From assembly GCA_030145055.1 (NCBI GenBank), contig JAQYWK010000004.1, positions 448,701 to 512,700 of the forward strand: 64,000 nucleotides of DNA. Direction: 5' to 3'. The DNA is from Desulfovibrio sp. Lineage in GTDB: Bacteria > Desulfobacterota > Desulfovibrionia > Desulfovibrionales > Desulfovibrionaceae. The translations under genes and the position numbers were made by a program. How positions within the stretch are numbered: position 1 is the first letter of the stretch; the number at the start of each line of letters is the position of its first letter. Positions 21,367 to 29,070 of this stretch are shown here, piece after piece. The notes below the pieces were generated by a model, which saw nothing but the letters and a program-made list of their open reading frames with translations, had not been told where the DNA came from and did not search any database.

Positions 21367-21591
21367 TTTAGATAATTAGTGATTTAATCAAACTAATTTT
21401 AAAGTTAAAAATATATTTGTAGAAGTAATTGACAAGTAATATTAGAATCTTATGTCTTGAAAAGAGTAGATAGCTAGAGTCTTATAGAGTATTGTTTATG
21501 CTCATAAATGATGATGAATTTCTTTTACACCAACTGAATATCAAAAAGTCAAAATGTAGGGCTATTGGTTTTAATTGTTAGGGGAACTAAA

Positions 21592-22785
21592 GTGCGAATT
21601 AGTTTTAATAGGATGGAGTGGGCTGGATCTGTGGGAGATTTAGGCGCGTTGCTACCCTTAGCTTTCGGCATGATCATGATAAATGGGTTGTCGTCCACTG
21701 GATTGTTTTTGACTGTTGGACTCTTTTATATTCTCGGGGGCATGTATTACCGAACTCCAATTGCAGTACAGCCCATGAAAGTTATTTCTGCTTATGCCAT
21801 TGCACAAGCTTTGAGTGCTGAGGTCATCACCGCATCAGGGATGATTATTGCTGTACTTTTACTTTTTCTAGGGTTGACCGGGATAGTGAAGCAGGCCGCT
21901 CGGATTATCCCTTTGCCCGTTATTAGAGGGGTTCAGCTATCCACAGGGATATTGCTAATATTGAAGGGGATAGATTTGGTTTTAGGTAAGAGTAGTTTGC
22001 AAGTTCTCAGAGGGGCGGTTGAACCTTTTTTGAGCTTTCAGTCCGTTGGTCCTGTTCCGCTAAGCATTGTTATTGGACTTGGATTTGCGGTAGTTGTTTT
22101 CTTCCTGCGAAATAGTAAACGCTTTCCTGCCGGCCTGATTGTTGTTGGTAGCGGTGCTTTTCTGGGTGTTTTATTAGGGGCGTGGCAGGGGCTTTCGGAA
22201 CTGAATTTCGGTGTGCACTTGCCGGAAATACTGCCTTTCGGAATTCCGTCGGGGGAAGCGTTCTCTTTTGCATTACTTGCTCTAGTTTTACCTCAGATTC
22301 CTATGACGCTCGGTAATGCCGTCATTGCGAATAGAAATTTAAGTCATGAATATTTTGGTGAAGAAAGCCGTAGGGTCACGGATCGTGCTTTGTGTATTAG
22401 CATGGGGCTGGCGAACGGATTTTCGGCTTTTGTCGGGGGGATGCCTGTTTGTCATGGGGCAGGAGGTCTTGCGGCACATTACCGATTCGGAGCTCGCACT
22501 AATGGCGCAAATATTATTATTGGTAGTATGTTTGTAACTCTTGCCATCGGTTTTGGAGCGGGATCAGTAAAAGTGCTCCAGCTTATTCCTATGGGAGTTC
22601 TAGGCGTGTTGTTATTTTTTTCAGGGTCTCAATTGGCAATGACTGCTAGAGATATGCGTACGTACCCTAATTTACTTGTCTTGTTTGTCATGCTGGTAAT
22701 TACATTACTCTCAAATCTTGCTTGGGCTTTCGGGGCAGGGATTATTTTAAGCGCTCTTCTCACAAAATTTAAGTTCTCTTCATAA
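21592..22785 (+). CDS. MOT1-like molybdate (or sulfate) transporter
   Basis: The GTG at 21592 is the best start, with AGGGGA six bases upstream; a TTG nine codons earlier has no ribosome site. The 397-residue protein has about ten membrane helices. It shows MOT1 family hallmarks: SVGDLGALLPLAFG near the N-terminus, PIAVQPMKVISAYAIAQ, LPQIPMTLGNAV, and the signature GGMPVCHGAGGLAAHYRFGA. MOT1 proteins take up molybdate; sulfate is a possible alternative. A molybdenum-storage-like protein gene lies 480 bases downstream on the same strand, which favours molybdate or tungstate. Confidence 0.85.
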   Translation: MRISFNRMEWAGSVGDLGALLPLAFGMIMINGLSSTGLFLTVGLFYILGGMYYRTPIAVQPMKVISAYAIAQALSAEVITASGMIIAVLLLFLGLTGIVKQAARIIPLPVIRGVQLSTGILLILKGIDLVLGKSSLQVLRGAVEPFLSFQSVGPVPLSIVIGLGFAVVVFFLRNSKRFPAGLIVVGSGAFLGVLLGAWQGLSELNFGVHLPEILPFGIPSGEAFSFALLALVLPQIPMTLGNAVIANRNLSHEYFGEESRRVTDRALCISMGLANGFSAFVGGMPVCHGAGGLAAHYRFGARTNGANIIIGSMFVTLAIGFGAGSVKVLQLIPMGVLGVLLFFSGSQLAMTARDMRTYPNLLVLFVMLVITLLSNLAWAFGAGIILSALLTKFKFSS

Positions 22786-22904
22786 GTTTTTGAGTTGGGA
22801 TTTGGTCATGTTTGATTGACACAACTCCCTGTATGATTAATTTGAACGCAGTAATGAAATTGAAAACAACAGTCAGATCAAAATAATCAAAGGAAATGTG
22901 AATT

Positions 22905-23096
22905 ATGAAAATTGATATTGCTATAGAAAAGATTCTTAGAGATGAGTCCGCTGATTTGAAAGAATTTTGCCGTAAGCGTAATGACGGAACTTTTACCGAC
23001 GGAGTTACTCTTTCCCGGGAATTGGACGGAAATCACGAAAACTATGTTCTTGGAGAAGGCTGGGTTGCTGACTATACTGTTATGACTGATTTGTAA
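22905..23096 (+). CDS. Small protein of unknown function
   Basis: A 63-residue acidic ORF with an AAAGGAAA ribosome site, lying between the molybdate transporter and the molybdenum-storage-like gene on the same strand. It has one Cys (EFCRKR) and no signal peptide or membrane segment. No family was recognised. It is supported by its start context and position; it could be chance. Confidence 0.5.
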   Translation: MKIDIAIEKILRDESADLKEFCRKRNDGTFTDGVTLSRELDGNHENYVLGEGWVADYTVMTDL

Positions 23097-23267
23097 GGTC
23101 TAGCGATAGAGATTAACACCGACAGAGAAGTATTTTTTGTCAAAGTTGTATGTAGAAGATTTGTATTGAGTTTGCTGCCGCAACATGTGTATTTTGTATT
23201 ATAAAAAAGTATAAAATTAAGTCCCTGTTTTGCAGGAGTTAACTCTAATAATCTGGAGGTAAGTAAT

Positions 23268-24116
23268 ATGGGAAAGTTGATTAAAGAAGATGGAGAGAAA
23301 GGTAGGTTGCACATAGAGACTAACCTGCTTGGAGAATCTCTGGTTGGAAAAGACTGCTTGCGTAGCACTGAGTCTGCGGAATATTTCCATATGCAGCCAG
23401 AAGTAAATGTCCTGAAAATCGGTGGTCAGTCTATCATGGATCGTGGAGCAAAAGCGTTGCTTCCTATTCTTGATGAATTAGTCATTGCTAAAGAGAAACA
23501 TAAAATTTTGCTGATGACTGGCGGCGGAACCCGCGCCCGTCACGTATATAATATCGGAATTGATTTGGGTATGCCTACAGGCGTACTGTCTAAGCTTGGT
23601 GATAAAGTTTCTTGGCAGAATGCCGAAATGCTGTCGGTTCTACTCGCTAAACATGGCGGAGTTAAAATCGGTCACGGTGATCATCTTGAGCAGCTTAATA
23701 TGTATTGCCAGCTCGGTTGTCTGCCTATTACTACAGGCATTCCTCCGTATGGCTTTTTTGAGCATCCTGCTGAGCTGGGGTCTATTCCTCCGCATCGCAC
23801 GGATTCCGGTGCATGCTTGCTCGCAGAAAATATAGGGGCTAAATCTCTATTGTATCTGAAGGATGAAAGAGGATTGTATGAAGATGATCCTAAAAAGGCT
23901 AAAAACCGTGAAGCACTCAAATTCTTTGATAAAATTCATGTAGATGAATTGATCGAAATGGATCTTGACGATTTGATCGTTGAACGTCCTGTTTTGACCT
24001 TCCTTAAGAATGCCAAAACTCTCAAACAGTTCCAGATCATTGATGTTCTGCGTCACCCTGAAGAAATTCATGCTGCTCTTAATGGCGAGCATGTCGGAAC
24101 TATTGTTTACAAATAA
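23268..24116 (+). CDS. Amino-acid-kinase-fold protein similar to molybdenum storage protein subunit
   Basis: A 282-residue protein resembling the MosA/MosB subunits of the Azotobacter molybdenum storage protein, a kinase-fold cage that uses ATP to pack polyoxomolybdate. The shared features are ESLVGKDCLR near the N-terminus, VLKIGGQSIMDRG (residues 48-60), TGGGTRARHVYNIG (84-97), GMPTGVLSKLG, IPPHRTDSGACLLAENIGA, LYLKDERGLYEDDP and the C-terminal GEHVGTIVYK. Generic kinase annotation (uridylate or aspartate kinase) fits less well. Only one subunit gene is present, so a homomeric cage is inferred. A GGAGG ribosome site precedes the ATG, and a strong terminator follows. Confidence 0.8.
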   Translation: MGKLIKEDGEKGRLHIETNLLGESLVGKDCLRSTESAEYFHMQPEVNVLKIGGQSIMDRGAKALLPILDELVIAKEKHKILLMTGGGTRARHVYNIGIDLGMPTGVLSKLGDKVSWQNAEMLSVLLAKHGGVKIGHGDHLEQLNMYCQLGCLPITTGIPPYGFFEHPAELGSIPPHRTDSGACLLAENIGAKSLLYLKDERGLYEDDPKKAKNREALKFFDKIHVDELIEMDLDDLIVERPVLTFLKNAKTLKQFQIIDVLRHPEEIHAALNGEHVGTIVYK

Positions 24117-24135
24117 AGTTGACGGTTTTAAATTT

Positions 24136-24171
24136 AAAAAGGGCTGTGAGGTTAACCTCACAGCCCTTTTT
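24136..24171. terminator. Bidirectional terminator
   Basis: Perfect hairpin AAAAAGGGCTGTGAGG-TTAA-CCTCACAGCCCTTTTT between the storage-protein-like gene and a convergent small gene. Confidence 0.92.
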
Positions 24172-24178
24172 AGTGGTC

Positions 24179-24385
24179 TTAATTCTTTTTCCCTTCGCTA
24201 CCCTTGCCGTCTCTTTCGAGGTAGATAATCTCAGCTCCAGTGTGCTCTGCAATCTGTTTCAACTCACATTTACGGATACGCTTAACTTTAATGGTAAGTT
24301 CTCCGCCATCGACACCAACTACGCGATATCTAGGTTTTTTGTCGCCATCTTCTGATCTGCGGCGTTCTCTTACAAATACTTTCAT
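24179..24385 (-). CDS. Small basic protein of unknown function
   Basis: A 68-residue, strongly charged protein with an AAAGGAGA ribosome site and a terminator directly after the stop. The middle part (RYRVVGVDGGELTIKVKRIR) looks like a small beta barrel or hairpin, and the C-terminus is Lys/Gly-rich. No family was recognised. It is divergent from the padR-like gene, with which it shares a 97-base promoter region. Confidence 0.65.
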   Translation of the reverse strand: MKVFVRERRRSEDGDKKPRYRVVGVDGGELTIKVKRIRKCELKQIAEHTGAEIIYLERDGKGSEGKKN

Positions 24386-24482
24386 AGAGTTCTCCTTTAG
24401 ATGTTATTGTGTCTTTGTGGATATTCGTCTATAATACATATATATCCTTGAAGAACCTATAGTCAAGAAGGACTTTGCAAAA

Positions 24483-24830
24483 ATGTCAAGAAAAGTTGGT
24501 GGGGGAAAACCCCAAAGATATGTACAGCCGTCATTATTAATGGCTCTTCGCGGTGGTTCTTCCTATGGTTATCAATTAATTCAGACCATTGGGGAGTACG
24601 GATTTATGCGGGGGGATGTTCCCCCGGGAATGATTTATAGGCATCTGCGCCAAATGGATGAAGAGGGACTTGTGCAGTCCGAATGGGATTCAGAAGGAGA
24701 TGGTCCCGCGAAACGGGTTTACTCCATCACCGCTGAGGGATTAGAAATACTGGAAGCGTGGATCATCCATATGGAACGTCAGCGTGATTCTCTGGATAAA
24801 TTTATTTTGCGGTATGCTGAGCATCCTTAG
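24483..24830 (+). CDS. PadR family transcription regulator
   Basis: A 115-residue protein with the PadR winged helix: YGYQLIQTIGEYG, PPGMIYRHLRQMDEEGLV and a wing with RVYSITAEGLEIL, then a short C-terminal dimer helix. PadR proteins usually repress neighbouring genes and respond to small ligands. It could control the divergent 68-residue gene, its own gene, or the molybdenum genes next door; none is shown by the sequence. Its last 29 bases overlap the convergent gene at 24802. Confidence 0.88.
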   Translation: MSRKVGGGKPQRYVQPSLLMALRGGSSYGYQLIQTIGEYGFMRGDVPPGMIYRHLRQMDEEGLVQSEWDSEGDGPAKRVYSITAEGLEILEAWIIHMERQRDSLDKFILRYAEHP

Positions 24831-25569
24831 CTTCGGGCTTTGCTTCTACGCTATGGCCTTTTTTGCGCTTGCCGTGAGCTGGTTCCCAGACTCCATGGCT
24901 GATGTTTTGCACTTGCAATACGGGGCGTCCTCCCCAAAGTGATGGGCGAATCCATGTAGCGCTTTGAACGAGGTCTCCTAGAAGCGGTACAAGCGGGTCG
25001 CGGTCTACCGAAACTACTTGGATGCCTGCATCGTACAAGTCATAGACATGCAGGGATGATGAAAGGTCGCGCAGTTTTCCATATTCAATAAATCTTCCGC
25101 ACCACCCGAATTTGGTTAGCCCGATTGCGGCTGTCGCTCCGATAATGCCGTCATTTGTTCCGCCAAGGCCCATCAATTCTATTGATTTGGTGACGTCCAT
25201 CGCGTTTTGCTGTGTGACGAGTTGCCCTGTAACAATTTTTGAGAAGTCGATTATTTCGCTGCCAATTTCTGACTCTTTAGCTATGCATAGTCCAGGATCG
25301 CTTCCCGGAGCGCAATGGTTCATGATGTGTTCTACTGCTAAAGTGCGGAGGAGCTCAATGGAGCCGTCCTGCGACATGTCTATGATGGCACAGGCAGAAC
25401 TGTTGTTCGAGGTGAAAGGGATATCGCCTAATCTTGGCAGCTGGTGACGAACCACACCCATCACGTGGTAATCTTCTGGTAATGAATAGACAAACTCTCT
25501 GACTAATCTGCCAGTTCCAATTGGAGCGTCTTTGTCATCTGTATCATCGAATCCTACGTATACGCGCAT
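24802..25569 (-). CDS. TiaS-like protein (FDDTD motif)
   Basis: The ATG at 25569 has AGGAGA upstream and gives a 255-residue protein; an earlier ATG adds 12 residues and is unlikely. The N-terminus VGFDDTDDKDAPIGTGRLVR resembles the nucleotide-binding start of archaeal TiaS (tRNA-Ile2 agmatidine synthetase), and later segments (GLGGTNDGIIGATAAIGLT) also recall that family's ferredoxin-like/kinase parts. The TiaS tRNA-binding C-terminal domains seem absent, so tRNA modification should not be assumed. The C-terminal 20 residues are Lys/Ala-rich and overlap the padR-like gene. Confidence 0.6.
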   Translation of the reverse strand: MRVYVGFDDTDDKDAPIGTGRLVREFVYSLPEDYHVMGVVRHQLPRLGDIPFTSNNSSACAIIDMSQDGSIELLRTLAVEHIMNHCAPGSDPGLCIAKESEIGSEIIDFSKIVTGQLVTQQNAMDVTKSIELMGLGGTNDGIIGATAAIGLTKFGWCGRFIEYGKLRDLSSSLHVYDLYDAGIQVVSVDRDPLVPLLGDLVQSATWIRPSLWGGRPVLQVQNISHGVWEPAHGKRKKGHSVEAKPEAKDAQHTAK

Positions 25570-25740
25570 GTTTGTGTCTCCTGCTTTTTGGGTACATTTT
25601 ATCATGCTTTAGCGCAAAGCAAGTAGTTTGAGCTTAATGATGAATTGGCACAACTTTAACGGCTGTTTTACGTCCTAATAGTCATTCATTATGTCTATTA
25701 TTGCATGTTATATCTATTTGGTATATTAATAACTAAATAG

Positions 25741-25850
25741 CGAAGGGCTGATGGGCTAAGCCCAAATGGGCAAGCAATGATACCCATGTGATTAAGTACT
25801 AAAACCTCTATGATAATGCAATAAAACAGTCGCGTTGAAACCATATGGAG
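25741..25850 (+). other. Possible structured leader of the ArsC/Spx-family gene
   Basis: Upstream of the candidate selenoprotein there are nested inverted repeats: GGGCT-A-AGCCC, GCCC-AAAT-GGGC and ATGGG...CCCAT within 25755-25795. They cannot all form together, so alternative folds are possible. No known riboswitch class was recognised. Confidence 0.3.
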
Positions 25851-25861
25851 ATGATATTATC

Positions 25862-26212
25862 ATGATTTTTGTACATTACCCAAGTTGAACGAGTGCACGT
25901 AAGGCCAAGGCTTGGCTTGAAGGAAAAGGTGTAGATTTCGTTGTTCGCAATATCATAAAAGAAACTCCGACTAAGGAAGAACTTCTTGAGTGGCGGAAGA
26001 TTGCAGGTGTTGATAAAAAAAAGTTTGTGAATACCAATGGCAAAAAGTACAAGGAACTCGGTCTTAAAGATACGATAGATACCATGTCTGACGATGAACT
26101 TTTTGGTATCATCGCGGGAGATGGAATGCTCATTAAACGTCCGCTTCTTGTGGGTGAAGATTATGTTCTTATGGGGTTTAAGATTAAAGAATGGGAAGCT
26201 TTAGAATTGTAA
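25862..26212 (+). CDS. ArsC/Spx-family protein with in-frame TGA at the catalytic Cys position (candidate selenoprotein)
   Basis: Read from the ATG at 25862 with TGA (25886-25888) as selenocysteine, the frame encodes 116 residues, the normal length for the ArsC/Spx/YffB family. The N-terminus is MIFVHYPS-U-TSARKAKAWLEG. In homologues this position is the catalytic Cys of YPxCSTCRKA. The rest is intact and family-like: TKEELLEWRKIAG, KKFVNTNGKKYKELGLKD, TMSDDELFGIIAGDGMLIKRPLLV. The hairpin GGCCAA-GGC-TTGGCT has its loop 20 bases after the TGA and a G at the loop start, which fits a bacterial SECIS. GGAG lies 11 bases before the ATG. The second Cys of CxxC is Ala. The alternative is a gene broken by one nonsense mutation. 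Confidence 0.72.
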
Positions 26213-26289: not shown

Positions 26290-26325
26290 AAAGAGGTGTC
26301 CATTAATATGGATACCTCTTTTTTA
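26290..26325 (+). terminator. Terminator downstream of the candidate selenoprotein gene
   Basis: Hairpin AAGAGGTGTCCAT-TAAT-ATGGATACCTCTT followed by TTTTTT. Confidence 0.85.
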
Positions 26326-28788: not shown

Positions 28789-29070
28789 ATGGGCGATTCG
28801 TCTTTGAAACAGGTTAAATATGGCGAGTTTTTAATAAGATATTTCGTTCAAGGAAATATCGCTTATTTGTGCCCTGCAGATATTTTTGCAGTAATGGGCA
28901 AGAGTGCAGATGAAGCTGCAGCCTGTGAAGGTGAAGCTTGGGATAAGGTTGAAACTGGACGACGTATTTTTACAGACGAAGATTTTTTTGAGTGGTTTTC
29001 AGTCCAATTTGATAGTTACGATTATTCTAGTGATATGGATTTCCCCCTCCCTCTTCCTTGGAGTGATTAG
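28789..29070 (+). CDS. Small acidic protein of unknown function
   Basis: A 93-residue protein with a GGGAGG ribosome site. It is acidic, with a C-terminal run rich in Asp, Ser, Tyr and Pro (DSYDYSSDMDFPLPLPWSD) and two Cys. No membrane segment, signal peptide or known domain was recognised. It ends 10 bases before the convergent XRE-PAS-receiver gene, with no terminator between. Confidence 0.6.
   Translation: MGDSSLKQVKYGEFLIRYFVQGNIAYLCPADIFAVMGKSADEAAACEGEAWDKVETGRRIFTDEDFFEWFSVQFDSYDYSSDMDFPLPLPWSD

Follow-up and report, generated by a model that had tools for sequence, protein, structure and literature searches.

A predicted selenocysteine-containing protein of the ArsC/Spx family in Desulfovibrio

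The gene and its surroundings

We examined a candidate selenoprotein gene of the ArsC/Spx family in a stretch of 64,000 nucleotides from Desulfovibrio sp. (the window, Table 1). Its frame has a single TGA, and this codon, the ninth, is where the family has its catalytic cysteine. With U written at that position, the predicted protein begins MIFVHYPS-U-TSARKAKAWLE and has the motif U-T-S-A. The window protein contains no cysteine, and the position three residues after the predicted selenocysteine (+3) is no exception. An earlier sequence-only reading of this DNA had described the frame, the TGA, the motif, the stop codon and a hairpin following the TGA, all of which were borne out when we reread the sequence. 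The GGAG upstream of the gene was read by eye, and a GGAG also precedes the start codon in those relatives whose sequences were inspected in the same way.

Table 1. Features of the window at and around the predicted selenoprotein gene
Feature	Position	Strand	Remarks
Neighbouring genes: MOT1-type molybdate transporter, amino-acid-kinase-family protein, PadR regulator, unnamed gene	21565..25605		together in 6 of 10 neighbourhoods compared
Shine-Dalgarno-like GGAG before ATG	25847..25850	+	read by eye, unscored
ArsC/Spx-family selenoprotein gene, predicted	25862..26212	+	116 codons plus TAA; ATG start
In-frame TGA (codon 9), predicted selenocysteine codon at the catalytic-Cys place	25886..25888	+	TGA in 16 of 17 full-length genes, TGT in 1 of 17
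Predicted bacterial SECIS hairpin	25902..25918	+	7 pairs; fold, codon conservation and alignment
Terminator-like hairpin, then U-rich tail, 3' of the gene	26290..26321	+	fold
Neighbouring gene: small protein without a Pfam match	28789..29070		close to the gene in 7 of the 10 compared neighbourhoods, namely those of this genus

Ordinary gene calling had been expected to reduce the gene to the part after the TGA. A table-11 open reading frame finder does so, giving on the plus strand only a 61-residue piece from the GTG at 26027, together with an antisense frame of 85 residues. The hairpin downstream of the gene has a folding energy of -20.5 kcal/mol (z -6.47, with none of 200 shuffled sequences as good); it was not among the results of a terminator pattern scan. 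The gene upstream points in the opposite direction. Seven neighbours in the window were scanned and five have a Pfam match, these being a MOT1-type transporter, an amino-acid-kinase-family protein, a PadR regulator, a chemotaxis receptor and a response-regulator protein.

The sequence-only reading had named selA, selB, selC and selD as genes to look for, and the window's genome has all four, each above its cut-off. The scores are 607.6 bits for selA (cut-off 267.9), 374.7 bits for selB (cut-off 242.25), 80.1 bits for the tRNA-Sec gene selC (cut-off 47), with the anticodon TCA assigned by ARAGORN, and 329.6 bits for selD (cut-off 125), which itself holds one in-frame TGA.

Conservation of the frame, the TGA and the hairpin

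Among 348 genomes of the class, 17 genomes in 3 of 59 genera contain a total of 19 matches at E <= 1e-10; for some genomes the scoring covered a part of the candidates from a first look (13 of 21 in G004), and a match may have escaped there. Duplicate loci were counted once per genome (L011, L024, L033-L036, L038, L039 and L044, with L045 counted as L055). Seventeen of the matches, including the one in the window, are full-length genes. Sixteen have one TGA, in every case at the identical codon, and the seventeenth (L022, from genome G013) has none and instead reads TGT, for cysteine, in YPSCSTSRKA. Of 395 sampled genomes from the phylum, seven match at E <= 1e-5, namely the window's genome, G600 and five weaker ones with 28.8 to 43.8 bits, one of which (G640) has a TGA in a UxxC motif. 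The G600 relative (123 bits) has cysteine at the catalytic place in a CTTC motif. Homologues therefore exist that keep either cysteine or TGA at codon 9; the sequence-only reading had named their absence as a refutation. Four of the 17 genes (L019, L020, L021 and L023) encode a cysteine at column 91.

The two remaining matches, a piece at a contig end (L042, in G267) and a second copy in G277 (L043, at G277:C1:2536440-2536577), were left out of the codon counts. The second copy is decayed; its DNA is 82% identical to the intact copy and has frameshifts, with the TGA retained.

Purifying selection is evident along the whole frame of the 16 TGA genes, with pS and pN of 0.746 and 0.071 in codons 1-8, 0.723 and 0.124 in codons 10-55, and 0.752 and 0.145 in codons 56-112; the whole part after the TGA has a pN of 0.135 and a pS of 0.739. 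That pN is far below pS in the first two of these segments indicates that the codons ahead of the TGA, like those from the TGA to the GTG, are kept as protein in this frame. These values bear on two simpler accounts of the TGA. It could be a nonsense mutation in an ArsC gene undergoing decay, or a sequencing error, and the frameshifted copy in G277 is a true case of decay. That copy looks different from the 16 genes, however, which share the same TGA in 16 separate genomes and are constrained on both sides of it, and we have ruled this account out as having a negligible chance of being correct. The earlier observation that the gene has no other lesion extends to the 17 full-length genes, all with an intact frame, the decayed copy being the exception. 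Translation could also begin beyond the TGA, for example at the GTG from which the table-11 finder begins its frame, and yield a short protein as the actual product. Such a protein would have only half of the fold and no active site, and the constraint on codons 1-8 and 10-55, upstream of that GTG, leaves it with next to no probability; we have rejected it.

Since the insertion of selenocysteine is here deduced from sequence, the UGA could alternatively be read without selenium by an ordinary tRNA, for tryptophan or another amino acid, through read-through or a change of code. However, the residue at codon 9 in G013 and G600 is cysteine rather than tryptophan, and the full machinery for selenocysteine is present together with a constrained SECIS-like hairpin. 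TGA is also the terminator of 4 of the 17 genes (L009, L010, L012 and L018), showing that it is not reassigned throughout. We find both ordinary read-through and a genome-wide reassignment of TGA scarcely credible and have rejected them. The tRNA-Sec gene was found in all 23 genomes checked, including G013 and six genomes of the genus that are without the selenoprotein gene. Its retention in G013 indicates that the cysteine form is a change in this gene and not a loss of selenocysteine use.

The hairpin described in the sequence-only reading, with a loop that starts 20 bases after the TGA and has G first, was confirmed, and its support comes from conservation at synonymous positions, not from folding energy. 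Its core, GCCAA-GGC-TTGGC, has five pairs (25904-25916), and the loop GGC (25909-25911) lies exactly 20 nt after the TGA. Codons 15, 16 and 17 are GCC, AAG and either GCT or GTT, and the three genes with valine at codon 17 still end it in T. No pair of the 16 TGA genes has a synonymous difference in these three codons, where about 201 pair differences would be expected from codon use. The lowest runs of 6, 8 and 10 codons in the gene all include codons 15-17, and a value as low as that of codons 14-19 came up in 9 of 20000 random column sets. Codon diversity over the entire gene is 0.86 of expectation, although the genes share ancestry. Of the 17 genes, only the cysteine gene L022 has changed synonymously in codons 15-17, from GCT to GCC. 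Covariation was not counted because the core columns are invariant in the TGA genes.

The available text of a recent inventory (PMC13188914) gives the limits for a bacterial SECIS element as a loop of 3-9 nt, a stem of 4-16 bp, a G in the first two loop bases, a distance of 16-37 nt from the UGA and an MFE of at most -7.5. The window's hairpin falls within these limits, with the loop GGC, 7 pairs, a distance of 20 nt and an MFE of -9.3 when the lower stem is included (the bare hairpin has -7.1). In a scan for single hairpins, the lowest fold in 15 of the 16 TGA genes has the 20-nt spacing and a loop of GGC or GGU (MFE -8.7 to -15.3); the exception is L014, whose lowest fold is a different one (-8.1, loop CAAG, spacing 17). 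Shuffled sequence folds as well as the window's hairpin does (z -0.12 to 0.10, with 77 to 96 of 200 shuffles as good), and we have dropped folding energy as proof of a SECIS element. An Rfam search gave one match at the level of chance (17 bits, against a gathering score of 105). We regard the hairpin as a predicted SECIS element that is backed by codon use.

The base immediately after codon 9 (25889) is A in all 17 aligned genes, the serine codon 10 being AGY and not TCN. A context effect in decoding may account for this, or simply common descent.

Four features of the sequences together argue for a selenoprotein: a frame conserved before and after the UGA, a constrained hairpin, the exchange for cysteine in one relative, and the presence of the machinery genes. 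The gene very probably encodes a protein of about 13 kDa with a thioredoxin-like ArsC/Spx fold, in which SelB would bind the hairpin just 3' of the UGA and deliver Sec-tRNA(Sec) to codon 9.

Relationship to known ArsC-family selenoproteins

Family searches were run on the protein with cysteine in place of selenocysteine. The window protein scores 62.6 bits with the Pfam ArsC model PF03960 (cut-off 24) and 99.8 bits with NCBIfam TIGR01617 (ArsC-related, Spx/MgsR), above the curated cut-off of 75.05, and is assigned to the latter family. It scores under the cut-offs of NF041106 ArsC_rel_Se_1 (19.1 bits, cut-off 85), of the TIGR00014 arsenate reductase (50.9 bits, cut-off 106.05) and of Spx NF002459 (63.7 bits, cut-off 123), where the second cysteine is in addition replaced by alanine or serine, and so is not a member of these three families by score. 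A search of the window's own genome with NF041106 gave no match.

Selenocysteine in ArsC-family proteins has a longer history. As far as the available parts of these papers extend, 14 ArsC-family selenoprotein sequences with UXXS were reported in 2005 (PMC1088965), an ArsC-like selenoprotein in Desulfotalea and a distant ArsC homologue in Desulfuromonas in 2006 (PMC1794560), and in the Global Ocean Sampling data of 2008 two types, ArsC 1 (UxxS, 77 sequences) and ArsC 2 (cd03032, UxxC, 42 sequences) (PMC2398784). Both types recur in a 2022 review (PMC9312934, available part), and an inventory of 119 families or subfamilies published in 2026 has TIGR00014 with UxxS and NF041106 with UxxC as its ArsC kinds; the available main text of that inventory does not mention TIGR01617, PF03960, cd03032 or UxxA (PMC13188914). 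ArsC terms are absent from the main text of PMC8318568 and PMC5029168. In the openly readable literature, no title or abstract start among the entries listed, in one case 25 of 899, names the present subfamily; subscription papers, supplements and RefSeq lie outside this scope, and an earlier notice is possible. The sequence-only reading had proposed a candidate new selenoprotein. Its identification as a selenoprotein stands, given the exchange of TGA and TGT, the selection and the machinery, but as a kind it is not new, as publications on selenoproteins of the ArsC family go back to 2005 (PMC1088965, PMC1794560 and PMC2398784, in their available parts). To judge from the sequences, the newness looks to lie in a TIGR01617-type subfamily with UxxA or UxxS, and not in selenocysteine within an ArsC fold.

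Several known types resemble this group in part. The TIGR00014 selenoproteins with UxxS (PMC1088965, PMC2398784, PMC13188914) are likewise of the ArsC family and have selenocysteine at the catalytic place without a resolving cysteine; L076, L079 and L082 are TGA rows of this type in our data. The window protein differs from them in its low TIGR00014 score and in belonging to a different starred clade of the tree. The NF041106 proteins with UxxC (PMC13188914) are also ArsC-like with selenocysteine at the same place, and all 27 NF041106 matches in our sample of 395 phylum genomes have one TGA; however, nearly every row read keeps a cysteine at +3, which the window's group never has, and the window protein is far below the cut-off of their model. 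ArsC 2 (PMC2398784), with UxxC as against UxxA or UxxS here, is set apart by its description in the available text and not by its sequences.

Our tree contained 70 ArsC-family rows (53 with selenocysteine and 17 with cysteine) in 117 columns, with some long branches. It included 25 of the 27 NF041106 loci and 28 loci listed besides the window's duplicate L044, and omitted L048 (G402) as well as L095 and L102, whose genes, close to a contig end, were not captured by the frame that was read. G600 groups with the 17 genes in one clade (99/97), to which neither the NF041106 rows nor the UxxS ArsC rows belong. The label changes between selenocysteine and cysteine at least 8 times on the tree, or 5 times when starred branches alone are counted, and a single clade for all 53 selenocysteine rows was rejected (p 5e-77). 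A joint clade of the selenocysteine rows of this group and of NF041106 was not rejected (p 0.134), and this test gives no support to an origin of selenocysteine independent of NF041106. Placing the cysteine gene L022 inside or outside the selenocysteine genes gave p 0.34.

Two other sets of rows stood out. L056, L057, L059, L061, L062, L064 and L073 make up a further ArsC-like group within the phylum, in which the catalytic position is a TGA and the motif is UxxC (CWxxUTTCRKA type); they are below the TIGR01617 cut-off, occupy their own starred clade and are perhaps the published ArsC 2 type. Close relatives with either TGA or a cysteine codon at the same place (STUTTCRNA or STCTTCRDA) were seen in L060 and L072 as against L058, L063, L065, L066 and L070, another exchange of selenocysteine and cysteine.

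Predicted fold and function

The best AlphaFold2 model, from a 14-row alignment, has a mean pLDDT of 89.9 and a pTM of 0.81; the other four models are weaker, with mean pLDDT values between 57.0 and 73.7. The best model places residue 9 between strand 1 (2-5) and helix 1 (10-21). The top solved structures in a fold search were 3gkx (TM 0.90), 3fz4 (0.90) and the Spx structure 3gfk (0.88), with arsenate reductases lower, at 0.83 and less. The domain cd03032 is the Spx-like ArsC domain, so the fold of ArsC 2 may be near that of the window protein. TIGR01617-type cysteine proteins such as G600 (L045/L055), 51% identical to the window protein, and 3gkx of Bacteroides fragilis share its length and fold, but have CxxC where the window's group has U (C in G013) with alanine or serine at +3.

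If the protein is a selenoprotein, it could be an arsenate reductase in the strict sense and not a reductase of another substrate. The PF03960 match is consistent with this, as are the residues invariant in the group (H5, P7 and R93-P94) and the pattern H-x-P-x-[C/U], which is common to the group and ArsC rows such as L067 and L080. However, the TIGR00014 score is less than half of its cut-off, the fold search ranks unassigned ArsC-related proteins and Spx higher than the named arsenate reductase of E. coli, and there is no arsenic gene among the five of seven window neighbours that have a Pfam match. We consider a strict arsenate reductase unlikely.

The Spx regulator works through a CxxC redox switch. 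Its fold is the same (TM 0.88 to 3gfk and 1z3e), and the TIGR01617 model is itself named Spx/MgsR, whereas the Spx score of the window protein is about half of the cut-off and its group is without the second cysteine for such a switch. A selenium-based, Spx-like redox regulator, a putative binder of RNA polymerase whose selenocysteine sensor would switch by bonding to an external thiol rather than through a disulfide within the protein, is in our estimate very unlikely.

A reductase with one selenol that needs an external thiol is probably the better description. The sequence-only reading had suggested a single selenocysteine without a resolving cysteine, which agrees with the UxxA or UxxS found across the group. 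Because the window protein has no cysteine, selenocysteine would be its only chalcogen redox residue, and most likely its selenolate would attack the oxidised substrate. It seems somewhat probable that an external thiol, for example thioredoxin or a low-molecular-weight one, then resolves the intermediate.

The gene adds a well-supported subfamily to the bacterial selenoproteome. It is dispensable, since 6 of the genus's 17 genomes do not carry it, yet tRNA-Sec is present in every one of the 17. The genus also provides a natural pair of forms, with selenocysteine in the window's genome and others and cysteine in G013, which is well suited to asking how selenium benefits the enzyme. The synonymous change in the cysteine form breaks the hairpin and so shows which positions the predicted SECIS element needs. 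Downstream of the gene, G013 has the same gene order as G016 and G001.
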